DNA from: an uncultured Subdoligranulum sp.
GTDB lineage: Bacteria; Bacillota_A; Clostridia; Oscillospirales; Ruminococcaceae
Direction of reading: 5' to 3'
DNA length: 41,881 nucleotides
Assembly (NCBI RefSeq): GCF_937890665.1
Contig: NZ_CALADU010000105.1
Coordinates: forward strand, 1 to 41,881
Below, one piece after another: positions 7,186 through 41,881 of the stretch. The notes beneath the pieces are model-generated. The model was not told the origin of the DNA. It saw only the letters and a list, made by a program, of their open reading frames with translations, and ran no database searches. Within the stretch, counting starts at the first letter, position 1, and every line of letters begins with the position of its first letter. Made by a program: the position numbers and the translations under genes.

Positions 7186-7842
7186 TCAGGGCAGCAGCGT
7201 GACGCAGAGCATCACGTCGGGCAGCGCCCGGACCTGTGCGGCCAAGGCTTCATCCAAGCCGCCGTCCATCTCGATGGTCATGACCGCCACGCCGCCTTTT
7301 TGACGGCGGGACAGGGAAAAGTTGCAGATATTCACGCCCCGGTCGGCCAGCAGGTCGGTGACCTCGGCAATGACGCCGGGCCGGTCCCGATGCTGTACGA
7401 TCAGGCTGGGATGCTGGCCGCTGATCCGCACCGGCATGCCGTTGATGGCGTCGATAACGATGTTGCCCCCGCCGATGCTGGACCCCCGCACCGTGATGGT
7501 GCCGCCCCGGCGTCCCGTCAGGGTCAGCACGGCGGTGTTGGGGTGGCCTTCGGGCAATTCCCCGGTGGAAAGCGTTACCTCCAGCCCCGTTTCCCGGGCG
7601 ATCTGGGGGGAAAACCGCAGCCGGGCATCGTCGGGGGTCATCCCCAAAATCCCGGCGATCAGCGCCTTGTCGGTGCCGTGGCCCTTGTAGGTCTTGGCAA
7701 AGCTGCCGTACAGTACGATCTGGGCGGCCACCGGCTCATCCTGCAAAAGCTGCCGGGCGATCTGCCCGATACGGGCCGCCCCCGCCGTATGGCTGCTGGA
7801 AGGACCGATCATCACCGGTCCAATGATGTCAAATACGTTCAT
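7186..7842 (-). CDS. sdaAB: L-serine ammonia-lyase, Fe-S dependent, beta subunit
   Basis: This is the partner subunit of the oxygen-labile serine dehydratase. The N-terminal part begins MNVFDIIGPVMIGPSSSHTAGAARIG, the universal opening of the beta domain. The C-terminal 70 residues form an ACT domain (LIVQHRDRPGVIAEVTDLLADRGVNI) that usually senses serine. I chose ATG 7842 because relatives begin at MNVFDII and a G-rich stretch precedes it. An in-frame ATG at 7860 would add six residues and has no ribosome site. Length is then 218 aa, typical. It is the first gene of the sdaAB-sdaAA operon. Confidence 0.96.
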   Translation of the reverse strand: MNVFDIIGPVMIGPSSSHTAGAARIGQIARQLLQDEPVAAQIVLYGSFAKTYKGHGTDKALIAGILGMTPDDARLRFSPQIARETGLEVTLSTGELPEGHPNTAVLTLTGRRGGTITVRGSSIGGGNIVIDAINGMPVRISGQHPSLIVQHRDRPGVIAEVTDLLADRGVNICNFSLSRRQKGGVAVMTIEMDGGLDEALAAQVRALPDVMLCVTLLP

Positions 7843-29285: not shown

Positions 29286-30554
29286 ATGCTGTCACAGGAA
29301 CAGCGGCAGCAGCAGTGTCTTGGCCAGCAGCAGATGCAGGCGCTGGCGGTACTCTCGCTGGACGGCGTCGGGTTGGAGGAACTGCTCAAACAAGAAGAGG
29401 TGGACAACCCCGTCTTTGATCTGGAGAAGATCGCGGTGTCCCGCAGGACCCCGGCGCCTGACACCGCCCCCCGGGAGGAAGCGGTGGCCGACAAAACGCA
29501 GGAGGATCTGCGGCTGATGCTGGAAAGCCAACTGCCCGCCGATGCCGACGCCGAGGACCGCCGCCTTTTTGCCCGGATGACTGAATTTCTCGAGAGCGGC
29601 ACCGGTCTGCTGCCCGAGAGCGTGCAGGAAATATCCGAGATCTTGGGGGCGCCCCTCTACCGGGTGGAACGGTGCCTGTCTTGGATGCACCAGATGGAAC
29701 CGGCCGGGGTGGGGGCCGCCACCACCGCCGAAAGTCTGGTGCTGCAAGCCTACCACCGGCAGATGGTGGACCCCAAACTGTATGACATCCTCTTTGACCA
29801 TCTGGAAGATCTGGCAGCCCGGCGGTACCGGCGGATCATGCGGGCCTGCGGGCTGACGCTGGAACAGGTGGAGGACTATGCGGCCCAGATCCGCACGCTG
29901 GAACCCTACCCCACGGCGGAGTACGGCGGGCTGGACACGGCGGCCTACATTGTGCCCGATCTGGTGTTTGCCCGGGAAAAGGACGGCTGGACCGTGCAGG
30001 TGCGGGACCGCTGGAGCGGCGGCGTGCCGTACAGCGAATTGTATACCACCCCGCTGGCCGACGCTGCGCCGGAACTGCGCAGCTATCTGCAGGCCCAGCG
30101 CCGCCATGCCGAGCAGATCGTCCGCTGTGTGGAGCGCCGGCGGCAGACCCTCTGCGCGCTGGGGCGGTGCATTGTACAGACCCAGCAGGACTTTCTCGAG
30201 CGGGGCGAGGCGCTGCACACCCTGACGGCGGACCAACTGGCCGCCGAAACCGGGCTGAACCCCTCCACCGTGAGCCGGGCGCTGAAGGGCAAATACGTCC
30301 AGACCCCCGACAAGGTCTATCCGCTGACCTTCTTTTTGTCCCGGGCGGGCAGCCGGGAGGCCGGCGGCGAGAGCCGCAGCGAGATTCTGGCCGCCCTCAG
30401 CGGGCTGCTGGCGCAGGAGGACGCCGCCCATCCTCTCTCGGACGCCCAGTTGGTGGACGCGCTGGGGCGTCAGGGCATCACGGTATCCCGCCGGACGGTG
30501 GCCAAATACCGGCTGTTTTTGGGCGTGCCCGGCGCCGCCGAACGCAAACGATGA
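29286..30554 (+). CDS. rpoN: RNA polymerase sigma-54 factor
   Basis: This sigma factor recognises -24/-12 promoters and needs an AAA+ activator to open them. Region I is the Gln/Leu-rich start (QRQQQCLGQQQMQALAVLSLDGVGLEELLKQEEVDNPVF), where the activator acts. The core-binding domain holds MEPAGVGAA (canonical DPAGVGA). The DNA-binding part has an HTH (LAAETGLNPSTVSRALKGKYVQTP) and the C-terminal RpoN box SRRTVAKYR. Length 422 aa is normal for Firmicutes. I chose ATG 29286 because AAGGGGG lies upstream; the frame is open further 5' but without a site. Its promoter is at 29212-29240 and the terminator at 30567-30608. The LevR-type activator and a perfect -24/-12 promoter lie 4-7 kb away. Confidence 0.96.
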   Translation: MLSQEQRQQQCLGQQQMQALAVLSLDGVGLEELLKQEEVDNPVFDLEKIAVSRRTPAPDTAPREEAVADKTQEDLRLMLESQLPADADAEDRRLFARMTEFLESGTGLLPESVQEISEILGAPLYRVERCLSWMHQMEPAGVGAATTAESLVLQAYHRQMVDPKLYDILFDHLEDLAARRYRRIMRACGLTLEQVEDYAAQIRTLEPYPTAEYGGLDTAAYIVPDLVFAREKDGWTVQVRDRWSGGVPYSELYTTPLADAAPELRSYLQAQRRHAEQIVRCVERRRQTLCALGRCIVQTQQDFLERGEALHTLTADQLAAETGLNPSTVSRALKGKYVQTPDKVYPLTFFLSRAGSREAGGESRSEILAALSGLLAQEDAAHPLSDAQLVDALGRQGITVSRRTVAKYRLFLGVPGAAERKR

Positions 30555-30651: not shown

Positions 30652-31278
30652 TTACGGCAGCCGGCTGACCAGATCCCGCACATAGGCTTCGCAGGTTTCC
30701 CAGTCGTTGGCAGCCACGGCGTCTTTGGGCATCAGGCTGCTGGCCAAGCCCACACTCAGGTAGCCTTCGTCGGCGATTAAGTGGTGCAGGTTGTCCGGCG
30801 TCACGCCGCCGATGGCCATGTAGTGGGTGTCGTCAAAAGGCCCTTTCAGGTCTTTCAAGTAGTGGTCGGGCATGCTGCCGGCGGGGAAGAGCTTCATGGT
30901 TTTGTAGCCGTACTCCAAGCAGACCGCCACATCGGTGGGGGTCATGACGCCGGGCAGCAGGGCGATGTTCTGGGCGGCACAGTAGGACAATACATCCAGC
31001 GGGGTGCCGGGGGTAAGCAAAAACTGGGCGCCGGCGGCAATGGCGGAACGGCAGCGCTCCACCGTGATGGCGGTGCCGCCGCCTACCAGACAGCGGTCCC
31101 CAAAGTGGCTGCGCAGCAGGGTGATCTGCTCCAGCGCATGGGGACTGTTCAAAGCGACTTCAAAAAAGGCCACACCGCCCCGCACCGCAGCCTCGGCGTA
31201 ATCCACCGTCTTTTCCAGCGGGACGTTGCGCAGAATGCCCAGCAGGCGGTTCTGCGATACCATCGAATACATATCCAT
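30652..31278 (-). CDS. dgoA: KDPG/KDPGal-type aldolase (DgoA/Eda family)
   Basis: This class I aldolase cleaves a 2-keto-3-deoxy-6-phospho-sugar acid to pyruvate and glyceraldehyde 3-phosphate. The Schiff-base lysine is K129 in MKLFPAG; the catalytic glutamate is E40 in FFEVALNSP. GGGTAI and LLTPGTP form the usual phosphate/substrate loops. Length (208 aa) is standard. ATG 31278 is chosen because AGAGG lies 7 bases upstream; a GTG at 31287 overlaps that site. It is 12 bp after the DgoD-family dehydratase and last in the PTS operon. The galacto versus gluco preference cannot be read from sequence; the DgoD neighbour favours KDPGal. Confidence 0.9.
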   Translation of the reverse strand: MDMYSMVSQNRLLGILRNVPLEKTVDYAEAAVRGGVAFFEVALNSPHALEQITLLRSHFGDRCLVGGGTAITVERCRSAIAAGAQFLLTPGTPLDVLSYCAAQNIALLPGVMTPTDVAVCLEYGYKTMKLFPAGSMPDHYLKDLKGPFDDTHYMAIGGVTPDNLHHLIADEGYLSVGLASSLMPKDAVAANDWETCEAYVRDLVSRLP

Positions 31279-31290
31279 CTCCGTCACCTC

Positions 31291-32436
31291 TTACCATTCG
31301 GCCATGGTGCCGTCGTAGTTGCGCCACTTGGGGTTGGTCCAGTGCAGACCTTCCGCCGACACTTCCTTGACCAGATCTTCGTCGATCTCCAACCCCAGAC
31401 CCGGTTTGTCGGGCACGTTCACATAGCCGTCCTTGTACTGGAAGACCTCTTTGTTCTTCACGAAGTCCAGCAGGTCAAAGCCCTTGTTGTAGTGGATGCC
31501 CAAGCTCTGTTCCTGAATAAAGACGTTGGGGGAGCAGACGTCCACCTGCAGGGTAGCCGCCAGCGCAATGGGACCGTAGGGGGCGTGGGGCGCAGCGGCC
31601 ATGTCAAAGGCTTCGGCCATGGCCACGATCTTCTTGGTTTCCAGAATGCCGCCCACAAGGGCCACATCGGGCTGGATGATGTCGATGGCACCCTGCCGGA
31701 AGAGGGACTTGTACTGCCAGCGGCTGACCAGCCGCTCGCCGGTGGCCAGCGGGGTGGAAACCTGCTGGGCCACTTCCCGGAAGCCCTCCTCGTTTTCGGG
31801 CAGGACCACTTCCTCCAAGAACATCAGCTTGTAGGGTTCCAGCGCGTGGGCCAGCACCTTGGCCATCGGCTTGTGGACCCGGCCGTGGAAGTCCACCGCG
31901 ATGCCGAAGCCGTCGCCGCAGACCTGCCGGATGGAGGCCACCCGGTCCACCACGGCTTGGATCTTGTCGTAGGAATCGATGTAGTGCAGTTCCTCGGTGG
32001 CGTTCATCTTGACGGCGTCAAAGCCCATGGCCCGGCGCTCCAGCGCGGCCTTGGCCACGTCGTCGGGGCGGTCGCCGCCGATCCAAGAGTAGACCTTGAT
32101 GCGGTCCCGGGCCTTGCCGCCCAGAAATTCATAGACCGGCACGCCGAAGGCCTTGCCTTTGATGTCCCACAGGGCCATCTCCAGACCGGAAACGATGGTG
32201 CCGTTGATGGGCCCGCCCCGGAAGAAGGACTTGTACATCTCCTGCCAAAGGCGCTCGATCTCAAAGGGATCCCGGCCCAGCAGGTAGGCGCCCATCTCTT
32301 TGGCGCCGGCCACTACGGTCTCGGTCTTGGTGCCCGAGATCATCTCGCCCCAGCCCTCGATGCCTTCGTCGGTGCTCAGCTTGACGAAGATCCAGCGGGG
32401 TTTGACTTCATATACGGTAATACCAGAAATTTTCAT
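31291..32436 (-). CDS. dgoD: Galactonate dehydratase-family enzyme (enolase superfamily)
   Basis: This Mg-dependent dehydratase converts an aldonate to the 2-keto-3-deoxy acid. It aligns almost throughout with E. coli DgoD as I recall it, ending AEW. The metal ligands are D182 (VDFHGR), E208 (FLEEVV) and E234 (GERL). The catalytic bases are H184 and H284 (APHAPYGPIALAATLQ). The EEV in place of the usual EEP after the second ligand is a small difference. ATG 32436 has GGGAGG upstream and gives 381 aa. It is encoded between a PTS permease and a phospho-aldolase, with no kinase. Its true substrate may therefore be a 6-phospho-aldonate rather than free galactonate; this is inference. Confidence 0.9.
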   Translation of the reverse strand: MKISGITVYEVKPRWIFVKLSTDEGIEGWGEMISGTKTETVVAGAKEMGAYLLGRDPFEIERLWQEMYKSFFRGGPINGTIVSGLEMALWDIKGKAFGVPVYEFLGGKARDRIKVYSWIGGDRPDDVAKAALERRAMGFDAVKMNATEELHYIDSYDKIQAVVDRVASIRQVCGDGFGIAVDFHGRVHKPMAKVLAHALEPYKLMFLEEVVLPENEEGFREVAQQVSTPLATGERLVSRWQYKSLFRQGAIDIIQPDVALVGGILETKKIVAMAEAFDMAAAPHAPYGPIALAATLQVDVCSPNVFIQEQSLGIHYNKGFDLLDFVKNKEVFQYKDGYVNVPDKPGLGLEIDEDLVKEVSAEGLHWTNPKWRNYDGTMAEW

Positions 32437-32470
32437 GCAGAACCTCCCGGTTATGTCCCCCACACAAGGT

Positions 32471-32500
32471 CCGGAGGCGGTCCTTCCGGACCGCCTCCGG
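32471..32500 (-). other. Stable intercistronic hairpin between PTS IIC and dgoD
   Basis: A 13-bp perfect stem CCGGAGGCGGTCC/GGACCGCCTCCGG; on the transcript the loop is GGAA, a GNRA tetraloop. No T run follows, so it is not a standard terminator. It may stop 3' exonucleases and set different levels for the PTS and enzyme genes. Confidence 0.7.
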
Positions 32501-32518
32501 CAGGGGGAGATCAGAGAA

Positions 32519-33781
32519 TCAATGGAACAGACCTGCTACCAGACTCAGCAGGTAGGAGAGCAGGTGGGGACCGGCGTCCTCGGTGGAGATGAGGGCGGCG
32601 CCCGCCAGCTCGTAGCCGCCAGCCACAGCCAGCGAGGTGTGGACCGGTGCCAGCGCCGTGGCGATGAAGAGCATGATGCAGGTGAAGATCACGCAGGAAA
32701 TGTAGCTGCGCACCACGTTGCCCTTGCTGAACGCCACCGGATAGGCGGACAGCCACATGGCCTGATAGGCAATGTCAGAGATGGGCAGCAGGCGGTTGAA
32801 GGGCAGCACCATGGCCAGAATGATGGTGGTGGGCACCATCAGGATGCCGACGGCGATGCAGCTGGGGTTGGCGATGGTCAGGGCGGCGTCGATGCCGATG
32901 TGGAACTTGTTGCCCACAAAGCGCTTGTTCAACAGGTCCTTGACGGCATCGGCGAAGGGGATCAGGCCTTCCATCAGGACCTGCATCATCTTGGGGGTCA
33001 GCATCATGGTGGCGGCGGTGTACATAGCCACGCTCATAACGCCGGCAACGTCGTTGCCGCCCAGAATGCCGAACAGGGCGCCCAGAATGGTGCCGATCAT
33101 CAGGGGCTCGCCCAGAATGCCGAATTTCTTCTGGATGCTTTCGGGGTCGGCCTTCAGCTTGTTCAGGCCGGGGATGTGGTCATACAGCTTGTTCAGCAGG
33201 TAGGCCAGGGGCGCCCAGCTGATGCTGTTGGAGGTGGGGAAGGAAACGCCGGGGATGCCGAAGGATTCTTCCACCACAGGCTGGGTCCAGTCGGCCAGCT
33301 TGAAGGTGACCATGGCGCAGATGGCGCCGCAGACCAGACCGATGATGGCGCTGCCCGAAGCGTAGTAGCAGATGGCGGCGCAGAAGATGAAGTGGTTGTA
33401 GCTCCAGAAGTCCACCATCACGCAGTTGGTGAGCTTGAGGGCCAGCATGATCAGGTTCAGGCCCAGTACCACAAAGACCACCACGGCGGCCAAGGGGTAG
33501 GCCCAAGTAGCGGCGGCGCGGGCAGGCCAGCCCACGTCCATAATATCGGTGTGCAGGCCAAAGCGGGTGACCATGTTCTGCACGCTGGGGCCTACCTGTG
33601 CGATGAAGGTGTTGATGACCAGGTTGACACCGCAAAAACCAACACCGGTGGTGATGCAGCACTTCAGCAGGGTGCCCAGTTTGACCCGCAGGCAGATGCC
33701 GATGATGAACATGATAATGGGCATCATGCACATGGGACCCAGACCGGCGATCCAATTCAAAGCATCAATAACGACTTGCAT
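32519..33781 (-). CDS. PTS EIIC component, galactitol family
   Basis: This is the membrane channel of a phosphotransferase system that phosphorylates its substrate during import. The 420 residues contain about ten hydrophobic segments. The opening VIDALNWIAGLGPMCMMPIIMFIIGICLRVKLG and the mid-region SIQKKFGILGEPLMIGTILGALFGILGG are typical of GatC/SgcC-type EIIC. Later KFHIGIDAALTIANPSCIAVGILMVPTTIILAMVLPFNRLLP matches the same family. AAGGAGGAA precedes ATG 33781. It follows the IIB gene by 24 bp. The family handles polyols and related acyclic sugars; the enzymes downstream point to a sugar acid here. Confidence 0.93.
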   Translation of the reverse strand: MQVVIDALNWIAGLGPMCMMPIIMFIIGICLRVKLGTLLKCCITTGVGFCGVNLVINTFIAQVGPSVQNMVTRFGLHTDIMDVGWPARAAATWAYPLAAVVVFVVLGLNLIMLALKLTNCVMVDFWSYNHFIFCAAICYYASGSAIIGLVCGAICAMVTFKLADWTQPVVEESFGIPGVSFPTSNSISWAPLAYLLNKLYDHIPGLNKLKADPESIQKKFGILGEPLMIGTILGALFGILGGNDVAGVMSVAMYTAATMMLTPKMMQVLMEGLIPFADAVKDLLNKRFVGNKFHIGIDAALTIANPSCIAVGILMVPTTIILAMVLPFNRLLPISDIAYQAMWLSAYPVAFSKGNVVRSYISCVIFTCIMLFIATALAPVHTSLAVAGGYELAGAALISTEDAGPHLLSYLLSLVAGLFH

Positions 33782-33805
33782 GTTTATTCCTCCTTACAGT
33801 GGTGC

Positions 33806-34096
33806 TTAGCCGCGCAGGATCTTAACGATCTCGTCGATGGCTTCTTTTTCGCCCACACCGGTGACAAAGCAGGTGCCGCGCACCACCGGGATGGAATCGG
33901 TCAGGCTGTCTTTCAGCGCGCCGGTGGGTACAATGACATCAGGGCGATCTACTTTGATCTTGCCTTGTACCTCGGCAAATTTGCACTGAATGAACTTTAC
34001 ATCAATGCCGGCGTTGGCCATAGCGGTCTTCAGCTTGTTGATTGCCAGAGTAGAGGTAATCATGGAAGAGCCGCAGCAAACCATAATTTTTTTCAT
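33806..34096 (-). CDS. PTS EIIB component, galactitol family
   Basis: This 96-residue cytoplasmic protein passes phosphate to the incoming substrate. The P-loop-like start KKIMVCCGSSMITSTLA holds the phosphocysteine; C8 aligns with the GatB active cysteine. The rest is a four-stranded alpha/beta fold ending FVTGVGEKEAIDEIVKIL. AAGGA precedes ATG 34096. Its start overlaps the IIA stop by 4 bp, and IIC follows, giving order IIA-IIB-IIC. Confidence 0.94.
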   Translation of the reverse strand: MKKIMVCCGSSMITSTLAINKLKTAMANAGIDVKFIQCKFAEVQGKIKVDRPDVIVPTGALKDSLTDSIPVVRGTCFVTGVGEKEAIDEIVKILRG

Positions 34097-34563
34097 ACGG
34101 AAATCCTTCTTTCTTGTAAAATATGCAGTACGTCTTGGGGGGTGTCGGCCGTGGCCAACTGTCCCATGATGTCAGCGTCGGATACAATGCCCATGATCTG
34201 CTGCAGAATATCCAACTGTTTGCCGTTGTGGTCCAAAGCGATGTTGAAAATTACCTTGACCTCCACGGTGGCTTCATCGTCATCCATCCGCCGGAAGGTC
34301 ACCGGCGTGTCCAAGATGGCAATGCCCATAGCGGAATGCTCCACATGAGCGGGGACTACATGGGGAATGGCCGCGTTCCATTGCTCCAGCTCCAGCCCGG
34401 TGGGATAGTCCCGTTCCCGTTCCAGCACGGCCTCGTAAAAGCTGGGCTTTACCTTGCCGGCGTGCAGCAGTGCTTCGTACAGCTGGTGCAGCGCCTCCTC
34501 TTTGTTGGCTGCTTGTACATGGGTCAGAATGCATTCGGGAAAAAGAATCTCATTGAGTTCCAA
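34093..34563 (-). CDS. PTS EIIA component, fructose/galactitol type, TTG start
   Basis: This cytoplasmic protein accepts phosphate from HPr and passes it to EIIB. The active histidine is H68 in AAIPHVVPAHVEHSAMGIAIL; the C-terminal VKVIFNIALDHNGKQLDILQQIMGIVSDADIM is the family's second conserved block. No ATG lies at a sensible place. The likely start is TTG 34563, with GGAGG 11 bases upstream, giving 156 aa as in GatA. An ATG at 34623 would put that site inside the coding part and add 20 unrelated residues. It is first in the sigma-54-driven operon IIA-IIB-IIC-dgoD-dgoA. Confidence 0.88.
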   Translation of the reverse strand: MELNEILFPECILTHVQAANKEEALHQLYEALLHAGKVKPSFYEAVLERERDYPTGLELEQWNAAIPHVVPAHVEHSAMGIAILDTPVTFRRMDDDEATVEVKVIFNIALDHNGKQLDILQQIMGIVSDADIMGQLATADTPQDVLHILQERRISV

Positions 34564-34620
34564 ATTGTGCTTCACCTCCTCTGGCTGTGTTCTGTCAACT
34601 CTGTGCGCCCCTGCAAAATG

Positions 34621-34665
34621 CAAAAAAAGAATGGGCGCAAGGAATCTGGAATCCTTACACCCATT
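34621..34665 (-). terminator. Intrinsic terminator or attenuator overlapping the sigma-54 start site
   Basis: On the minus strand a 14-bp stem (34665-34652 with 34643-34630, two G-U pairs, 8-base loop) is followed by CTTTTTTTG. It would end the regulator transcript. The predicted sigma-54 +1 (about 34661) lies inside its 5' arm. Confidence 0.8.
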
Positions 34666-34670
34666 ACTTA

Positions 34671-34688
34671 TAGCAAGTTGCGTGCCAA
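34671..34688 (-). promoter_or_regulatory. Sigma-54 (-24/-12) promoter of the PTS operon
   Basis: The minus strand reads TTGGCACGCAACTTGCTA, a full match to the consensus TTGGCACG-N4-TTGCW, with GG at -25/-24 and GC at -13/-12. Predicted +1 is about 34661, 98 bp before the IIA start codon. A sigma-54 gene and a matching activator are both in the window. Confidence 0.92.
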
Positions 34689-34708
34689 CATGACGGCAGG
34701 TTTTGTTT

Positions 34709-37519
34709 TTAGCGCAAAAGATCGTAAATTTCTTGGGCGGATTTGGCGGAAAGAAGCGCTTTCACGCGGTTTTCGTCCTTGAGCAAATCGCAAAATCTTT
34801 GTACAAAAATTTGGCAGCTTTCATCCAAAGCGAACAGAAAAACAATTTCTGCCACAAAACCGCCCGACCAGTCCACCGGACGGCAGGTTTTGGCGATGCA
34901 GATGGCAGGTTTTGTGACCAGCGCCGGGTCCCCGTGGGGAATGGCGATCTGCTGGGGCAGGCAGGTGGCGCCCAAATTCTCCCGCTTGTAGACACTGAGC
35001 AGAAAATCCGGCTTGACGCAGCCCTTTTCGGTCAGCATGGTACACAGGGTATCCAGCGCGTCGTTCTTGTCGTTGAAGTCGGCGTCGCAAAGGATCAACT
35101 GGGGGTCCAGCAGGTCGCCCAGCCCGTTGGGGCGCTGGCAATGGCTTTCCAGCAGATTGGTCAGAGCCATCGTCCCCTGTCCCGAGAAGATGTAGTTCAT
35201 CGGCAAAAAGGGGATGCCGGGCAATTCGGGGTTGATGGTGCCCACGGCGGCCACAATGTCGTAGTCATGGCGCAGCTCTTCCACCCGGGCCAGCATGGCG
35301 TCCCGGTTCAGCAGGCCCACATCCACGATCTTGATGTCCCGGCATTCCACCACGGTGGCTTTCAGGAAACTTTCAATGCGGCGGGCATAGCCTTCGCCGG
35401 TGATGCAGACGGTAAGAATGGCCGAGGGTTTGCCGGTGCGCTGTTCCAAATCGGAAAAACCGGCGTGCAGACGGCCGATCTCCAGAGTGTCGGCCAGCTC
35501 GTCCAGTGTACACCGCTCCCGAAAACTGGCACGGTGGACCGCATCCAGCGCCATCAGGGTATCTACTCGGGCCACGCAGCGCACATGAACGCCGGTGCGC
35601 AGCGAAATTTCCGGCGCAAAGGAGGCCAGCGACCCCATATCCACCAGCAGCAGGCAGCCCAGTCCTTCGTCCACCTGCTGGACCAGCCGGATGGCCCGTT
35701 CCAGCACCTGCTCGCTGCTCTCCTGCCAGTCCATCGAAAAGCCGATGGCGTTGTCGTCCTGCAAAATGTGGTTGACCACCTCTGCCATGGCGGGGCCGAC
35801 CTGCCCGTGGGCCATCAGGATGATGCGGATGCGCTTGCCGGTGCGCCGGGCCGAGAAGGCATACAGGCAGAGGGTGAGCATCTGGATTTGGTAGGCCGAC
35901 AGGTTGCTGGGGCGCAGGGCACAGTATTTGCTGGCAAAGCGGCGGGCCAGCTCGTACTCGGCGGGGTATTTGTCGGCCAGATGGGCGGTGTCGGTGGGGT
36001 CGCCGTGGGGCCCTTGGGATGTCAGGCACAGGGCCACCGATTCCTCAAAATCCCCGCCCAGACAGAGCAGGCAGTCCTGCATGTCGGCCAGCACGGTACG
36101 CACCAGCGCCAGCGTTTCCTGATGTTTGCGGCGGCGGACTTCGGCGGCCTCGGCGGCTTCTTGCAGCACCCGGGGCCCGGGATGGATAAACTGGTTCAGC
36201 AGGCCCCGGATCCGCTCAGGGGAGGAATCGTCGCTGTCCACGGCTTCTTTTAGCCGCTTGTAGAGCTCGTCGGGTTCGGCTTCCGCCTGCGGTTTGGCAT
36301 CCCCCGGCGGAAAAACCAACTGCCGGTCATACTGGCTCTCGATTTCCAGCGTGCGGGAACCGGTGACGGCGGGCAAAAGCTGCTGGACCAGCTCGGCCCG
36401 GATGTAGACGGCGTCCTCCTGACGGGAAACGCTTTCCAAAAAGGCGTTGGCGCAGCAAACCTGAATGTCGCTTTGCAGTTGGCCGATGTTGCCGGGGCAG
36501 TCGTATTGCAGCAGCAGGCGGGCGGCTTCCCGCTCCACCACCAGACGGCGGCCGATCTTGCGGTATTCCGTTTCCAGAATGCTCTGCACCACGGCAAACC
36601 GCTCCGACAAGGGCCGGTCGGCCAGCGCCGGCATCGAGATGACGATGGGGATGCGGCGGCGGAAGGTGAGCAGCAGCGCCGATTCGGGGGAGGAGGTGGT
36701 GGCGGCAATGAGCCGCACCTTTACCTGATGGGCGGGGCCGGAATCCCCCAGCCGGCGGAAGGCGCCCTTGTCCAGCAGGTAGAAGAGCATCTCCTGCCCT
36801 TCGCCGGACAGGCGGTGGATCTCGTCCAAAAACAGGATGCCGCCGTCCGCTTTGTCCACCAGACCGCTGCGGGTGGTGGTAGCGCCGCTGAAAGCGCCGC
36901 GCACATAGCCGAAAAGCTGGCTGTTCAGCAGCTGGGGGTTGTCGGCATAGTCGGCACAGTTGAAGGCCACAAAGGGGGCGTCGGGGGCCAGCAGCTTTTG
37001 CTGGATGGCGTAGCGGTACATCGTTTCGGCCAGCAGGGTCTTGCCGGACCCCGAGGGGCCGATGATCAGGGTGTGCAGCCCGTTGGGCGGGTAGGATACC
37101 GCCGCTTTGGCCTGATGGATCTGGGCTTTCAGGCCGCCGTCAAAGCCGATCATCCGGGCAAAGAGGTTTTCCTCCGCCTCCTGCGGGGCGGGCGGCTCGG
37201 CGGCAGCCGTGACCGGTCCGGGGGCTGGGGGCAGGGTCTCCCGCAGTTCCCGCACCAGATAGCGGGATACTTTGAAACCGCTTTCGTTCAGGCGGGCGGT
37301 CAGCGACCGGTCGGACAGATCCGGCTCCTGCGCCAGCAGGCGGGCGAGTTCCCGGGTCAGGATGGGCCGCAGCCGTGTGCGGGAATCGGCCACCCCGGCG
37401 GTACGGCGCAGCTCCACCACCTGTTCCCGGCGTATCCCCAACATCTGGGCCAGTTGTTCGTCGGTGTAAGGCTGGCGGGGGTCCTCCTGTTCTATCAGGC
37501 GGGTAAGGGACGAAGTCAT
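34709..37519 (-). CDS. LevR-type sigma-54 activator with PTS regulatory domains
   Basis: This AAA+ activator opens the PTS operon promoter and is controlled by PTS phosphorylation. Domain order: N-terminal HTH segments (about 18-95, DNA binding); AAA+ (120-390) with Walker A GPSGSGKT (154-161), GAFSGA loop (208-213) and Walker B GGILFLDEIH (226-235); a PRD-like region (about 465-560); an EIIA-Man domain with H571 in ILMAHGQ; an EIIB-Gat-like domain with C705 in TVCITGEG; and a C-terminal EIIA-Mtl/Fru domain with H862 in AIPHGDP. I see no second PRD at the C-terminus as in LevR. The loop has Ser in place of the usual Thr of GAFTGA. The gene starts 14 bp after the lactonase gene and ends 46 bp before the TTGC of the promoter it should activate. 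Confidence 0.93.
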   Translation of the reverse strand: MTSSLTRLIEQEDPRQPYTDEQLAQMLGIRREQVVELRRTAGVADSRTRLRPILTRELARLLAQEPDLSDRSLTARLNESGFKVSRYLVRELRETLPPAPGPVTAAAEPPAPQEAEENLFARMIGFDGGLKAQIHQAKAAVSYPPNGLHTLIIGPSGSGKTLLAETMYRYAIQQKLLAPDAPFVAFNCADYADNPQLLNSQLFGYVRGAFSGATTTRSGLVDKADGGILFLDEIHRLSGEGQEMLFYLLDKGAFRRLGDSGPAHQVKVRLIAATTSSPESALLLTFRRRIPIVISMPALADRPLSERFAVVQSILETEYRKIGRRLVVEREAARLLLQYDCPGNIGQLQSDIQVCCANAFLESVSRQEDAVYIRAELVQQLLPAVTGSRTLEIESQYDRQLVFPPGDAKPQAEAEPDELYKRLKEAVDSDDSSPERIRGLLNQFIHPGPRVLQEAAEAAEVRRRKHQETLALVRTVLADMQDCLLCLGGDFEESVALCLTSQGPHGDPTDTAHLADKYPAEYELARRFASKYCALRPSNLSAYQIQMLTLCLYAFSARRTGKRIRIILMAHGQVGPAMAEVVNHILQDDNAIGFSMDWQESSEQVLERAIRLVQQVDEGLGCLLLVDMGSLASFAPEISLRTGVHVRCVARVDTLMALDAVHRASFRERCTLDELADTLEIGRLHAGFSDLEQRTGKPSAILTVCITGEGYARRIESFLKATVVECRDIKIVDVGLLNRDAMLARVEELRHDYDIVAAVGTINPELPGIPFLPMNYIFSGQGTMALTNLLESHCQRPNGLGDLLDPQLILCDADFNDKNDALDTLCTMLTEKGCVKPDFLLSVYKRENLGATCLPQQIAIPHGDPALVTKPAICIAKTCRPVDWSGGFVAEIVFLFALDESCQIFVQRFCDLLKDENRVKALLSAKSAQEIYDLLR
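34793..34812. promoter_or_regulatory. Candidate upstream activator site inside the regulator gene
   Basis: AAATCTTTGTACAAAAATTT is a 20-bp palindrome with one mismatched pair, centred about 141 bp upstream of the predicted sigma-54 +1. The distance is normal for an activator site. It stands out as AT-rich in GC-rich coding sequence. Confidence 0.45.
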
Positions 37520-37533
37520 GACCGTTCTCCTTT

Positions 37534-38457
37534 TTATGGTTGCCCGGCAAAGATGCGGCGGGGGTTATCCACCAGAATGGTGTGCAGTGCGGTTTCCCCA
37601 ATGCGGGGCAGCAGGGCGTCGTACAGCCGGGTCAGGATATAGGCAAAGCCGGGCTTGCCGCCGTAGGCGGGCAGATAATCGGTCTTGCCCATGTCGCCGG
37701 CCAGCGTCACCCGGTCGGCGTAGCCGGCCTCCACCAAGTCGGTGATCATCTGGACCCGGAAGGCGTCGGTGTCCGCCAGTTCCCGCCCCACATGGTCGAT
37801 GCAGATGGTGGCGCCGGTCTGGCAGAGGGCTTTGGCATAGTCGGTATCCCGGCGGCTGTCGATGTGGCAGAGCAGCACCTCGCAAGGGTCCACGCCGCAG
37901 TGCTCCAGCGCCTGCAGTTGTTCCAGCCCCATGGTGCCCTTGTCGCAGTGGGTGCTCAGGGGAATGCCGGTGTCCCGGTGGACCCGGGCGGCGATGGCCA
38001 GCGACCGGGCTTCCCGGGGGGTGATCTGTTCGTAGCTGGTGCCCAGCTTCAGCACACCGGGGCGCACCCCGGTGCCGTCCAATCCGTCGGTGATCTCCCC
38101 CATCAGCAGGTCGTAGAGTTCTGCGTCGCTCTTTTCATCAAACCACGGGGGCATAAACAGCTCTTTGTGAAAGCCCGTGCAGCATAGGATGTGCGCCCCG
38201 GTCTTTTCGGCGATGCGGCGGTAGGCGGCGGGGTCCCGCCCGTAGTGCAGCGGGGTCATCTCCACCAGCGTGCAGCCGCCGGCGTCCAGAAACGATTGGG
38301 TCTCCGCCGCCGAGGCTTCCTCGTCCTGCAAGGTGTAGGGAATGTAAGCGGGGTCGTCCAGTTGGGGTTTTACCATCAGGTGCTCGTGCACATAGGTCAC
38401 GCCCAGTGCCTGCCCGTCCACCGGTCCCGTTACCGTCATGGCGCAATGCCAATTCAT
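37534..38457 (-). CDS. Phosphotriesterase-family (COG1735) lactonase-like hydrolase
   Basis: This is a binuclear-metal TIM-barrel hydrolase. Metal ligands are H24 and H26 (VHEHLMV), the carbamylated lysine K137 (VLKLGTSYEQI), H170 (STHCDKG), H198 (CHIDSR) and D255 (AGDMGKTD). Several COG1735 members hydrolyse phosphorylated sugar-acid lactones rather than phosphotriesters, which fits its place beside a sugar-acid PTS pathway. I chose ATG 38457 because AAAGGA precedes it and the metal motif then sits at the usual distance; upstream in-frame starts have no site. It shares a transcript with the activator gene, from the sigma-A promoter at 38616-38644. Lactonase activity is inference; the fold and metal site are clear. 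Confidence 0.88.
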   Translation of the reverse strand: MNWHCAMTVTGPVDGQALGVTYVHEHLMVKPQLDDPAYIPYTLQDEEASAAETQSFLDAGGCTLVEMTPLHYGRDPAAYRRIAEKTGAHILCCTGFHKELFMPPWFDEKSDAELYDLLMGEITDGLDGTGVRPGVLKLGTSYEQITPREARSLAIAARVHRDTGIPLSTHCDKGTMGLEQLQALEHCGVDPCEVLLCHIDSRRDTDYAKALCQTGATICIDHVGRELADTDAFRVQMITDLVEAGYADRVTLAGDMGKTDYLPAYGGKPGFAYILTRLYDALLPRIGETALHTILVDNPRRIFAGQP

Positions 38458-38615: not shown

Positions 38616-38644
38616 ATTATAAGGTTTTCCGCTTTTTTTGTAAA
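38616..38644 (-). promoter_or_regulatory. Sigma-A promoter of the lactonase-activator operon
   Basis: Minus-strand TTTACA (38644-38639), 17-bp spacer, TATAAT (38621-38616). The activator is thus made from a housekeeping promoter while its target uses sigma-54. Confidence 0.8.
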
Positions 38645-38776: not shown

Positions 38777-39694
38777 TTATGCAGTTTGCTGTAACAGATA
38801 GTAGACGGCGCCCACCAGACCGGCGTCGTTTTGCAGCGCCGCAGCGGTCAGGGTCAGCCCTTCGGCAAAGGCGGGCATGACCGCCGCCTTGACCTTGCGC
38901 TCCAGCGGTTGGATGAGCAGCGTGTTCTGGGCGCTGACGCCGCCGCCCACCAAGATGCGCTGGGGGTTGAAGATGTGGACCATGCCCGCCAGACCTTGGG
39001 CGATCTCGTCCATCCAGTGGTCCAGCAGGTCCAGCACATCGCAGCGGCCCGCCTGCGCGGCGGCAAAGATGGCGCGCCCGTCCACCAGAGTGGGGTCCAT
39101 CGCCTTGGCGGCCCGGACCAGCGCCGTGGTGGAAGCGTACCGTTCCCAGCAGCCCTTGGCGCCGCAGGTGCAGGGCACCCCGTCCAGCGCGTGGGTGCGG
39201 TAGTGGCCCATCTCGCCGCCCAGACCCCGGGCGCCTTCCAGCAGCCGTCCCCCGGTAAGGATGCCCCCGCCGATGCCGGTGCCGATGGTGATGCCGATGA
39301 CATCGGTGCAGCCTTGGGCCGCACCCACCCACACTTCGCCCAGACACATGCAGTTGGCGTCGTTGGCGACCGTTACCGGCAGGTGGTAGTCGGCTTCCAG
39401 CCGGTCCCGGATGGGGGCGCCCACCCAGCCCGGCAGGCTGCCGCAGGTGCCCGCTACGATGCCCCGGCGGCTGTCGATCTGCCCGGTGGCCGATACGCCG
39501 ATGCCGCACAAGAGTTCCCGCCGTCCGGCGGTAAAGTCGGCGGCGGCTGCCTGTACGGTGTCCAAGATGGGGGTGCGGTAGTCGTCAAAGCTCACGCTCC
39601 GCTCCGTCCGGTCCAGCACGGCGCCGGTCTCGTCCACAAGGCCCAGCTTGACCGCTGTGCCGCCAATGTCGATGCCCAGATAGATCTTGCTCAT
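38777..39694 (-). CDS. nanK: ROK-family kinase, probable N-acetylmannosamine kinase
   Basis: This enzyme would phosphorylate N-acetylmannosamine with ATP in sialic acid breakdown. The ATP-binding start is IYLGIDIGGTAVKLG, and the ROK signature with zinc ligands is CTCGAKGCWERYAS. The substrate loop shows GEMGHYRTHALDG and the catalytic aspartate sits in VANDANCMCLGE. ATG 39694 has AAAGGAG upstream; length 305 aa is normal. It is 10 bp after nanE and last in the operon. ROK kinases vary in substrate (glucose, allose, ManNAc); the nanE/nanA context decides this call. It is the only sugar kinase near the PTS cluster, but it lies in another operon. Confidence 0.88.
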   Translation of the reverse strand: MSKIYLGIDIGGTAVKLGLVDETGAVLDRTERSVSFDDYRTPILDTVQAAAADFTAGRRELLCGIGVSATGQIDSRRGIVAGTCGSLPGWVGAPIRDRLEADYHLPVTVANDANCMCLGEVWVGAAQGCTDVIGITIGTGIGGGILTGGRLLEGARGLGGEMGHYRTHALDGVPCTCGAKGCWERYASTTALVRAAKAMDPTLVDGRAIFAAAQAGRCDVLDLLDHWMDEIAQGLAGMVHIFNPQRILVGGGVSAQNTLLIQPLERKVKAAVMPAFAEGLTLTAAALQNDAGLVGAVYYLLQQTA

Positions 39695-39704
39695 GGCCGC
39701 TCCT

Positions 39705-40406
39705 TTACTTGCAGTCCTGAATGGCCGCGGTGAACCGGGCCGTGATCTCGGCGGGGCGGGTGATGGCGCCGCCGACCACCAGCGCATAGGCGCCGGCTTC
39801 CAGCGCTTTGCGGGCCTGCTCGGGGTAGTGGATGTGCCCCTCGGCGATCACTTTGGCGGGGCATTCCTTGGCAAGCTGGGCCACAAAGTCGAAGTCGATG
39901 TCGTTGATGCCGGTGGTCTCGGGGGTGTAGCCCCGCATGGTGGTGCCCACAAAGTCGGCCCCGGCGGCGGCACAGGCCATGGCTTCCTCCAAGGTGGCGA
40001 TGTCGGCCATCACCAACTGGTCGGGATACTTGGCCTTGATTTCCCGGATAAACTCCGCCGCCGTCTTGCCGTCGGGGCGCAGGGCGCTGGTGCCCTGTAC
40101 GGCCAGAATGTCCACGCCGCAGGCCACCAGCGCGTCCACCTCGGCCATCGTTACGGTGATGTACATGGGGGTGCCGGGGTAGTCTTTTTTGATAATGCCG
40201 ATCACCGGCAGGTCCACCACCGCCTTGATCTGGGTGATGTCCCGCACGGTGTTGGCCCGGATGCCCACCGCTCCGCTCATGGCGGCAGCCTTGGCCATCA
40301 GCGGCATAATGCCGCCTTCGGGGGTGTACAGGGGTTCATGCTCCAGCGCTTGGCAGGACACGATCAGCCCGTGATGGATTTGCTGGAAAATTTCTTCCTT
40401 CTTCAT
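39705..40406 (-). CDS. nanE: N-acetylmannosamine-6-phosphate 2-epimerase
   Basis: This enzyme converts ManNAc-6-phosphate to GlcNAc-6-phosphate. It is a TIM barrel of 233 residues. Family blocks are GLIVSCQALEHEPLY at the N-terminus, GAVGIRANTVRDI, PVIGIIKKDYPGTPMYITVT (catalytic lysine region), ADIATLEEAMACAAAGADFVGTT, and VIAEGHIHYPEQARKALEAGAYALVVGGAITRP. ATG 40406 overlaps the yhcH stop by 4 bp; GGAG lies 10-13 bases upstream, helped by translational coupling. Confidence 0.95.
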   Translation of the reverse strand: MKKEEIFQQIHHGLIVSCQALEHEPLYTPEGGIMPLMAKAAAMSGAVGIRANTVRDITQIKAVVDLPVIGIIKKDYPGTPMYITVTMAEVDALVACGVDILAVQGTSALRPDGKTAAEFIREIKAKYPDQLVMADIATLEEAMACAAAGADFVGTTMRGYTPETTGINDIDFDFVAQLAKECPAKVIAEGHIHYPEQARKALEAGAYALVVGGAITRPAEITARFTAAIQDCK

Positions 40407-40876
40407 TCCAAATACGCTCCTTTGTTGTGCAGCATCTCGATCTTGACCACGGCTTTGCGCACGGTGTCGCAGTCCGGGGTGCGGCAACTGGGTTTGTGGG
40501 GCTCGCCGGGGAAGAACAGGGCAAACCGCCCATCCCCCAAGGTGCCGGCGGCTTGCTCCGGTCCGGTCACAAAACCGGCGTCGGTCTCCCCGTCGTAGGG
40601 CTTGTCCTCGGCCCCGGCGGCGGCCCAGCCCCACTGCTCCGACCCCGTCAGGTCGATCTGCAAATCGGCATAGCGGTGGTGGTACTCAAAAGCGGCGCCT
40701 TCGGCGTCCCGCAGGGCGGCATCCATCACGTTGATGAACACCCGGTCGCCGTCGATCTCGGTGCGGCCGTTGGGCAGGGCGGCAGGGTCATGGGCCATCA
40801 GCCACCGGATGGCCACGTCCAAATTTTTGTGCAGGCCGCGGTAGCGCGGCAGATTCTGCAAGGTATCGGTGATCAT
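40403..40876 (-). CDS. yhcH: YhcH/YjgK/YiaL-family cupin protein
   Basis: This 157-residue cupin-fold protein is regularly found in sialic acid operons. In E. coli the homologue (NanQ) is reported to speed anomer interconversion of sialic acid. Sequence blocks are FEYHHRYADLQIDLTGSEQW, FALFFPGEPHKPS (metal-binding histidines) and VRKAVVKIEML near the end. ATG 40876 has AAAGGA upstream. It lies 72 bp after nanA across a small hairpin, and overlaps nanE by 4 bp. Confidence 0.9.
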   Translation of the reverse strand: MITDTLQNLPRYRGLHKNLDVAIRWLMAHDPAALPNGRTEIDGDRVFINVMDAALRDAEGAAFEYHHRYADLQIDLTGSEQWGWAAAGAEDKPYDGETDAGFVTGPEQAAGTLGDGRFALFFPGEPHKPSCRTPDCDTVRKAVVKIEMLHNKGAYLE

Positions 40877-40912
40877 AGGGGGTCCTTTCCGGGGCGGCGC
40901 CCCAAACAGGGA

Positions 40913-40940
40913 CAGGCTCCCCTGAAATCAGGGAAGCCTG
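40913..40940 (-). other. Intercistronic hairpin between nanA and yhcH
   Basis: Arms of 13 bases with one mismatch (40913-40925 and 40928-40940) and only a 2-base centre; no T run follows. It may set transcript stability or reduce expression of the later genes rather than terminate. Confidence 0.5.
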
Positions 40941-40948
40941 CCGCCGGA

Positions 40949-41881
40949 TTATAGCGTCTGGACTTCGGCCAGCGCGCTTTCGATCATCGTCTGGGCGGCC
41001 ACCACAACGGCGTCGTCCGCCTCGGTCAAACCGGGCAGCGGCGGGCGCACGCCGCCCAGCTCCAAACCGTACATGCGGCGCAGGATCTCTTTCTGCACAG
41101 CGTACAGGTTGCCGTGGGCCTCGCACATCTTGTAGATGATCCGGTCCGCCAGATACTGCACATGACGGGCGGTGGCGATGTCCCCCTTGCCCAGCAGCTC
41201 GTTCATCTTGAGGAACAGCTCGGGCATGACGGCATAGGTGCCGCCGATGCCGCCGTCGGCGCCCATCACCCGGCCCGACACAAACTGCTCGTCGGGACCG
41301 TTGAAGACCGCGAAGCCGTCCTTGCCCCGGGCGGCGATGCCGGCATCCTTGAACATCTGGATGTCCTGCACCGGCATGGAGGAGTTCTTCACAGCCACCA
41401 CGTTGGGGTTTTTCAGCATTTCGGCCAGCAGGGGCATGGTCAGGGCGGTGCCCGCCAACTGAGGGATGTTGTAGATGACGAACTCAGTGTTGGGGGCGGC
41501 GGCGCTCATGGCGTTCCAGTAGTCCGCGATGGCGTAGTTGGGCAGGTGGAAGTAGATGGGCGGGATGGCCGCGATGGCATCCACGCCGCACTGTTCCGCA
41601 TGGGCGGCCAGTTCCACACTGTCGGCGGTGTTGTTGCAGGCCACATGGGCAATAACGGTGATCTTGCCCTTGGCCTCGCTCATGACGGCTTCCAGCACGG
41701 TTTTGCGCTCCGCCACGCTTTGGTAGATGCACTCGCCGGAAGAACCGCCCACGTACAGGCCCTTGACGCCCTTGGCGATCAGATGCCGGGCCAGCGCCTT
41801 GACGCCTTCCACTGAGATCGCCCCGTTCTTGTCATAGCAGGCATAGAAGGCCGGGATCACACCGCGGTATTTGTTGATGTC
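40949..41881 (-). CDS. nanA: N-acetylneuraminate lyase, 5' end outside the window
   Basis: This class I aldolase splits sialic acid to pyruvate and N-acetylmannosamine. The DapA/NanA TIM barrel shows GLYVGGSSGECIYQSVAERK (substrate loop), the tyrosine in EFVIYNIPQLAG, and the Schiff-base lysine in VVAVKNSSMP. The reading frame is open to the last base. The residues before GTG 41860 (DINKYRG) continue the normal NanA start, so the true start lies just beyond the right edge and only about ten residues are missing. It is the first visible gene of nanA-yhcH-nanE-nanK; transporter or sialidase genes may lie further right. Confidence 0.94.
   Translation of the reverse strand, partial: DINKYRGVIPAFYACYDKNGAISVEGVKALARHLIAKGVKGLYVGGSSGECIYQSVAERKTVLEAVMSEAKGKITVIAHVACNNTADSVELAAHAEQCGVDAIAAIPPIYFHLPNYAIADYWNAMSAAAPNTEFVIYNIPQLAGTALTMPLLAEMLKNPNVVAVKNSSMPVQDIQMFKDAGIAARGKDGFAVFNGPDEQFVSGRVMGADGGIGGTYAVMPELFLKMNELLGKGDIATARHVQYLADRIIYKMCEAHGNLYAVQKEILRRMYGLELGGVRPPLPGLTEADDAVVVAAQTMIESALAEVQTL

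Follow-up and report, generated by a model that had tools for sequence, protein, structure and literature searches.

The window, a contig of 41,881 nucleotides from an uncultured Subdoligranulum sp. (NZ_CALADU010000105.1, forward strand), carries at positions 30652-38457 an operon with all of its genes on the minus strand, whose products look like a phosphotransferase system (PTS) for a sugar acid together with enzymes for degrading that acid. A preliminary description of this DNA had listed a COG1735 hydrolase, an activator, a -24/-12 site, PTS proteins IIA, IIB and IIC, a DgoD-family dehydratase and an aldolase of the 2-keto-3-deoxy-6-phosphogluconate (KDPG) type, and all of these parts were present (Pfam, NCBIfam; Table 1). 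The Pfam scan of the operon proteins found an MR_MLE domain in the dehydratase. By eye, the probable start codons were ATG 32436 for DgoD and ATG 38457 for the hydrolase, and the start of IIA was most likely TTG 34563 behind AGGAGGTG instead of 34623. The hydrolase and activator genes sit upstream of the sigma-54 promoter, which lies between the activator and IIA. The phospho-acceptor H68 of IIA was His in 57/57 aligned rows, GatA included, and the phospho-acceptor C8 of IIB was Cys in 55/55, GatB included. E. coli GatABC belongs to the same IIA, IIB and IIC families, but the window IIC scored 391 bits against an NCBIfam cut-off of 542 for the galactitol-specific protein. Neither a galactitol-1-phosphate dehydrogenase nor a tagatose gene was found among the operon proteins scanned with Pfam and NCBIfam, so galactitol catabolism was rejected. 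The same searches found no kinase among the proteins of the operon, and the earlier remark that the kinase of the classical galactonate route is missing here was thus borne out.

Table 1 Features of the operon and its borders in the window
Feature	Position	Strand	Basis
COG1735/PTE-family hydrolase, predicted phospho-sugar lactonase	37534..38457	-	PF02126 2.4e-53 (open reading frame from 38532)
LevR/DgaR-like sigma-54 activator with AAA+, EIIA-man and EIIA_2 domains	34709..37519	-	Pfam, NCBIfam
Sigma-54 -24/-12 promoter TGGCACGCAACTTGCT	34672..34687	-	Exact match
Hairpin with a T run after it, near +1 of the sigma-54 transcript	34630..34665	-	Terminator-like match
PTS IIA, galactitol family, H68 invariant	34093..34563	-	PF00359
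PTS IIB, galactitol family, C8 invariant	33806..34096	-	PF02302
PTS IIC, EIIC-GAT family, subtype A	32519..33781	-	PF03611 9e-70; subtype from scores and tree
DgoD-family dehydratase, predicted galactonate 6-phosphate substrate	31291..32436	-	NF010624 604 bits (open reading frame from 32463); SGTKT loop
KDPG/KHG-family aldolase, KDPGal-type residue Ile at the E. coli V154/T161 site	30652..31287	-	PF01081 1.1e-37
Sigma-70-like promoter TTTACA-17-TATAAT, upstream of hydrolase and activator	38616..38644	-	11/12 matches
rpoN (sigma-54), convergent neighbour, start chosen by eye	29286..30554	+	TIGR02395 285.7 bits, cut-off 277.35 (open reading frame from 29151)

We consider that the products of the operon probably carry out a De Ley-Doudoroff route that is driven by a PTS and needs no kinase. 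Every substrate and every reaction named here is predicted from the observed gene content, conservation, signatures and co-variation. In the GatABC reaction, the hydroxyl that receives the phosphate corresponds to C6 of D-galactose, and the galactitol-family IIABC of the operon would import a galacto-configured sugar acid and phosphorylate it at C6; in loci with the type A IIC described below, this substrate would most likely be the lactone of the acid. The type B IIC would deliver D-galactonate 6-phosphate directly, and the type A IIC, the one in the window, would deliver galactonolactone 6-phosphate, which the COG1735 hydrolase would open to D-galactonate 6-phosphate. Dehydration of this product directly to 2-keto-3-deoxy-6-phosphogalactonate (KDPGal) would be the task of the DgoD homologue, whose loop is altered so that a phosphate could fit. 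DgoK would then be superfluous, and the aldolase would split KDPGal into pyruvate and glyceraldehyde 3-phosphate. Phosphorylation at uptake is supported by the dehydratase loop, the residue type of the aldolase and the pairing of hydrolase with IIC.

The operon is a real, widespread and conserved module. A scan with the window dehydratase returned 63 loci, of which L001-L056 had at least 68% identity; the scan starts from words of the window dehydratase, so the sample represents its close kin and not all DgoDs. Counting genes on the DgoD strand that lie no more than 4 kb from DgoD, the 56 close relatives had IIC in 55, IIA in 54, IIB in 53 and the aldolase in 53, and all four together in 52/56. 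Among the exceptions, L039 ends at a contig edge and L034 lacks most module genes, and the aldolase of L028 and the IIB of L012 exist and were dropped from the counts when overlapping reading frames were thinned. The closest relative of the window was L001 (Candidatus Gemmiger excrementigallinarum), with 94-95% identity in DgoD, and the record titles of the carriers name enterococci, streptococci, lactobacilli, clostridia and Coriobacteriia. Next in order in L006-L008 comes a gene whose product, on the evidence of L006, is a member of the PTS enzyme I family. Two side observations touch on the spread of the module. An Enterococcus durans plasmid (CP012367.1) carries a regulator, the aldolase, IIA-IIB-IIC and the dehydratase, with no hydrolase listed and transposase genes on both sides. 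The dehydratases of L018 and L019 were identical even though the records are titled Streptococcus parasanguinis and Enterococcus lactis, which means either recent transfer or a sample mix-up.

The window dehydratase falls in the galactonate dehydratase equivalog NF010624, with a cut-off of 311 bits, and the PTS-linked DgoDs formed one side of a branch labelled 100* in a quick tree of 71 rows. Twenty-five alignment columns separated the PTS-linked proteins from 12 close non-PTS DgoDs, and 14 of these columns fell within residues 1-90, which lie in the N-terminal domain. In related dehydratases of the enolase superfamily the N-terminal domain is the main determinant of substrate specificity, according to the part of PMC9795676 available to us. 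Residue 35 was Glu in 21/21 non-PTS DgoDs (E. coli included, down to 44% identity to the window protein) and Gly in 57/57 PTS-linked ones. The stretch I/V/L-E-G-R/K/H found in nearly all non-PTS DgoDs was replaced by SGTKT in 56/57 PTS-linked proteins and by SGAKT in L046, and SGTKT was also present in 120/120 listed database relatives of at least 79% identity. The model of the dehydratase had a mean predicted local distance difference test score (pLDDT) of 85.1, with weak regions at residues 316-318, 366-370 and 376-381. In this model the SGTKT loop runs up to the N-terminal end of helix 38-52; K12 lies at the end of strand 3-12, ahead of strand 15-22. A loop at a helix N-terminus is a common phosphate-binding arrangement, and the SGTKT loop would presumably face the substrate. 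The earlier suggestion that the DgoD homologue acts on a 6-phospho-aldonate is thus favoured by the changed loop, with SGTKT and Gly35 in place of Glu35. Some points weigh against this use of the loop: the non-PTS set combined E. coli with 20 loci from a single class, the label "non-PTS" means that the window PTS proteins had no match in the stretch fetched, and contact of Glu35 with the substrate is assumed.

The loop changes could also reflect a different configuration at C2 or C5 instead of a phosphate, in which case the substrate would be another acid leading to KDPGal, for example D-talonate, or an acid of different configuration. An IlvD/EDD-family gene after the hydrolase in six Olsenella-type loci suggests more than one acid. 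Against this stand a DgoD equivalog score well over the cut-off, the motifs DFHG and APHAPYGP, which were intact in 57/57 PTS-linked dehydratases, and the KDPGal-type aldolase, and we regard such a substrate as improbable. The six loci concerned are L036, L037, L038, L040, L046 and L055 (IlvD/EDD family tested in L036), and they also have a D-2-hydroxyacid dehydrogenase gene (tested in L038) before the aldolase.

The aldolase was judged by the site at which V154 (KDPGal aldolase) and T161 (KDPG aldolase) influence KDPGal/KDPG stereoselectivity, as given in the part of PMC4915726 available to us. All 55 in-operon aldolases had V (53) or I (2, the window and L001) at this site, and 6/6 other aldolases within the module loci had T. 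The window aldolase was closer to the generic Eda model than to the DgoA model (158.5 vs 120.8 bits), and its stereo residue was nonetheless of the DgoA type. Its identity was 83% to the L001 copy and no more than 33% to any of the remaining 53 in-operon copies, which makes it an apparent replacement with the galacto-type residue retained. The aldolase gene lies behind the dehydratase in the window, L001, L002 and L003, and most relatives differ in this order.

The absence of a kinase was then weighed over whole genomes and gene contexts. DgoK (PF05035) was matched in only 2/49 carrier genomes, in both on contigs that differ in length from that of the module, and the E. coli positive control was matched. 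As a control, 23 genomes of the same class as G007 were chosen for strong DgoD matches, and DgoK was found in 6 of them. G007, one of the 17 control genomes without DgoK, carries the module itself (L007); when it was omitted, 16/22 genomes not known as carriers also lacked DgoK. Because of this, the absence of DgoK by itself is weak and non-specific evidence, and it was rejected as a stand-alone argument. The contexts of 20 DgoD genes from the control sample contained matches to E. coli DgoK or KdgK (E 1e-3) in only 5/20, which means that such kinases can be remote, and the window PTS proteins had no match in any of the 20 contexts.

These results bear on an alternative in which the PTS imports something else, DgoD uses free galactonate, and 2-keto-3-deoxygalactonate (KDGal) is phosphorylated by a general PfkB-type 2-keto-3-deoxygluconate (KDG) kinase encoded elsewhere. 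Besides the 5/20 stretches, it draws on the many genomes that have DgoD-family genes without DgoK and on an upstream PfkB kinase in four module loci. The latter and some further observations count against a kinase-free route: L015, L016, L017 and L020 have a PfkB gene some 7.7-8 kb upstream of DgoD and, near it, a second aldolase carrying the KDPG-type Thr, and the L017 PfkB copy scored with KDG/KDGal kinase models, below their cut-off. Other PfkB matches lie downstream of DgoD, at 4.7 kb (L018 and L019, weak) and 7.4 kb (L045), and ROK matches lie 5.9-10 kb from DgoD in L012, L029, L032, L043 and L048; the kinase queries consisted of DgoK, KdgK and one ROK protein. However, PTS genes are tied to the dehydratase clade across Bacillota and Coriobacteriia and no kinase gene is, the altered loop occurs in all 57 clade members, and a galacto-type aldolase implies a 6-phosphate intermediate of galacto configuration, so that we find a remote KDG kinase unlikely. 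The preliminary idea that the PTS phosphorylates the aldonate on entry and makes the kinase unnecessary appears to be the best-supported reading, in view of the module conservation, the rarity of DgoK and the KDPGal-type aldolase.

One kinase gene does lie close to the operon in the window, a ROK kinase at 38777-39787. Its best NCBIfam match was a ROK glucokinase model, below the cut-off, the next models were other hexose and aminosugar kinases, and it adjoins nanE- and nanA-like genes (by eye); as a candidate for the missing kinase it was set aside. Together, the upstream neighbours at 38777-41860 on the minus strand resemble a gene cluster for sialic acid (ROK family from Pfam; nanE, YhcH-like and nanA by eye).

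The IIC proteins fell into two subtypes, with scores of at least 405.8 or at most 316.9 and a single split on the tree. The hydrolase was found in 22/22 loci with IIC type A, the type in the window, and in 0/36 with type B. The IIC subtype switched four times on the DgoD tree, and the hydrolase switched with it every time. Four such pairs are too few for significance (p = 0.125), so the co-switching was rejected as a significance test, and this shortfall counts against the pairing, as does a hydrolase reading frame of only 80 amino acids in L053. Both kinds of IIC occurred under one title in Enterococcus malodoratus ATCC 43197 (L027, L048) and in Clostridium polynesiense (L062, L063). The co-occurrence of GatABC-type PTS, DgoD-family and COG1735 genes, earlier named as a check, held for IIC and DgoD in the close relatives, but for the hydrolase only in type A loci (22/58).

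A profile and alignment built from 16 of the 22 hydrolases were used to examine this family. H24, H26, K137, H170, H198 and D255 were invariant in the 16 aligned sequences, and we take them to be the binuclear metal ligands, with K137 as the bridging Lys. Against the PDB the profile found 3pnz first (2.4e-70), then php and 3msr, 3msr being the fourth sequence; we take 3pnz to be the phospho-sugar lactonase Lmo2620 and 3msr to be Mycoplasma MS0025. The distal phosphate of Lmo2620 is presumably held by K242, K244, R275 and Y278, and this numbering fits. At the corresponding positions the hydrolases had an invariant R225, L227, K258 (either K or R in the alignment) and an invariant Y261. Two points weigh against a phospho-lactonase: K244 of Lmo2620 is not conserved, being L227 here, and the window hydrolase scored only 149 bits against a cut-off of 630 for the phospho-furanose lactonase NF045706, about the same as the php-type model (148).

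The hydrolase of type A loci might instead cleave another bond, an amide or ester of galactonate, with IIC type A importing the conjugate. The NCBIfam scores far under the lactonase cut-off, equal to the php-type model in the window and lower than it for the L036 hydrolase, fit such an activity, and COG1735 includes an amidase, PTER (N-acetyltaurine hydrolase). We hold cleavage of a conjugate to be doubtful, though not negligible, since the profile was nearest to 3pnz, ahead of php and 3msr, R225 and Y261 are invariant at the presumed phosphate-binding positions, and the combination of a PTS with a lactonase has a precedent in UlaABC-UlaG. The earlier proposal that the hydrolase opens a phospho-lactone is supported by its strict pairing with IIC type A, but the step would lie outside the core route, as 36/58 loci have no hydrolase.

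COG1735 hydrolases adjoining this PTS family are a wider pattern, because up to 12 of 20 hydrolase genes fetched from Bacilli follow PTS-like series. A related hydrolase was present in 54/299 genomes of the class of G026 (Bacilli, according to the L027 title), and of the 20 loci fetched, 14 had a reading frame of 420-439 amino acids directly upstream on the same strand. L132 and L134 resemble L133, in which this upstream reading frame is YhfT, and the remaining 12/14 look like PTS series, with an IIA match nearby in 11/12 and EIIC-GAT in 3/3 tested. In L116-L118, also from Bacilli, hydrolase and aldolase genes come after a PTS-like series and no DgoD match accompanies them, and a creatininase-family gene comes next in L118; this is possibly another PTS sugar-acid route.

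For regulation, the operon seems to pair an AAA+ sigma-54 activator with a predicted dependent -24/-12 promoter. The activator carries GAFSGA, a variant of GAFTGA read in the translation, and it matched the NCBIfam DagR model at 413 bits, well under the cut-off of 1400. EIIA-man and EIIA_2 domains were found in it and a PRD was not reported (Pfam at 0.001). The perfect -24/-12 promoter claimed earlier was confirmed, as TGGCACGCAACTTGCT at 34687-34672 was the sole exact match in the window. With one mismatch allowed, 2 sites were found against 4.2 expected by chance, and since the motif alone was then not beyond chance it was set aside as evidence by itself and its conserved position was used instead. 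In 21/21 activator-linked loci, the window included, the activator gene is closely followed on its downstream side by a site scoring at least 10/11, and single-base shuffles of these stretches reached at least 10/11 in only 6/10500 cases. By analogy with DgaR, we infer that the LevR-like activator would fire the sigma-54 promoter once the enzyme II (EII) proteins hand their phosphate to the substrate; for DgaR, the part of PMC4987338 available to us states that EII phosphorylation inhibits and substrate relieves the inhibition. Not all module loci use the sigma-54 activator: some have a PRD-type regulator, recognised by Pfam in L002 and L018, and still others have different regulators.

The sigma-70-like site at 38644-38616 was found once in the region, against 2.3 expected by chance. 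The hairpin at 34665-34630 would either terminate the upstream unit or act as a leader element, and a similar hairpin with paired base changes was seen by eye at about 7715-7748 of locus L001.

The rpoN gene adjoins the module, and the carrier genomes G001, G004 and G005 each had one strong sigma-54 activator domain (E 1e-40 to 1e-43), on the same contig as rpoN and the module; their next-best activator domains were at 2.7e-8 or weaker. Genome G033 had two such strong domains. Counts of sigma-54-like sites against the control were 3 vs 4 in G001, 6 vs 0 in G004 and 3 vs 0 in G005. Sigma-54 may serve mainly this operon in these genomes, which may be incomplete; the activator counts favour a dedicated sigma-54, but the sigma-54-like sites of G004 and G005 outnumber those of their controls, so we keep it as a side note.

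Among known systems, E. coli dgoRKADT (De Ley-Doudoroff) has in common with this operon a DgoD-family dehydratase, a KDPGal-type aldolase and the end products. The window operon has a PTS instead of the DgoT symporter, no DgoK and another regulator, its dehydratase has Gly35 where E. coli DgoD has Glu35, and phosphorylation is proposed before dehydration here, whereas it comes after dehydration there. The hydrolase is in the same superfamily (COG1735) as Lmo2620/Bh0225 and Mycoplasma MS0025, for which pentono-lactone 5-phosphates are reportedly substrates; a hexono-lactone 6-phosphate is proposed here. The dehydratase of the Salmonella D-glucosaminate system dga is a pyridoxal phosphate enzyme, in contrast to the enolase-superfamily dehydratase of the window, and UlaG of the L-ascorbate system ula is an enzyme of metallo-beta-lactamase fold. 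The ula system (UlaABC, UlaG) takes up a lactone as its 6-phosphate by a PTS and then uses a cytosolic phospho-lactonase, as stated in the available parts of PMC3219644 and PMC4324149, and its downstream route differs. The dga system, with DgaR, shares a LevR-like sigma-54 activator over a sugar-acid PTS (available part of PMC4987338), in line with its earlier use as a precedent in logic; its PTS is of the mannose family, from a title cited in that paper, while that of the window is of the galactitol family. The PTS-lactone logic is already known from ula and the activator logic from dga.

The route itself was described nowhere in the open-access literature searched for the gene set, 6-phosphogalactonate and lactonase, with most subscription papers lying outside, and it was absent from the available parts of PMC7513527, PMC6042284, PMC6615313, PMC12316311, PMC13204991, PMC3142484, PMC10117131 and PMC8605565. 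As far as the available parts of two comparative-genomics papers go (PMC6042284, PMC10117131), galactitol and galactonate traits are listed separately, and the genes concerned are probably the same as those of this module. A galactonate cluster is mentioned in the accessible part of a Tetragenococcus paper, and the accessible main text of a sigma-54 regulon survey of Clostridiales mentions neither galactonate nor galactitol. The names on database relatives, where seen, were galactitol PTS and galactonate dehydratase.

The fullest form of our interpretation is a 6-phosphogalactonate dehydratase of the enolase superfamily supplied by either of two exchangeable PTS front ends, with IIC type B for D-galactonate and IIC type A plus an obligatory COG1735 hydrolase for D-galactonolactone; the two front ends were swapped about four times ahead of one dehydratase clade, and with sigma-54 and its sole strong activator perhaps serving mainly this operon in the nearest relative and possibly in two Lachnospiraceae metagenome-assembled genomes; taken as a whole, we regard this form as an even call. 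If the route is true, these genes would belong to a single pathway, which would add a new enzyme activity and new PTS substrates and would do without a separate KDGal kinase. The five-residue loop would then help annotation to tell phospho-substrate DgoDs from free-substrate ones. The genes themselves are spread across many other gut and lactic bacteria.

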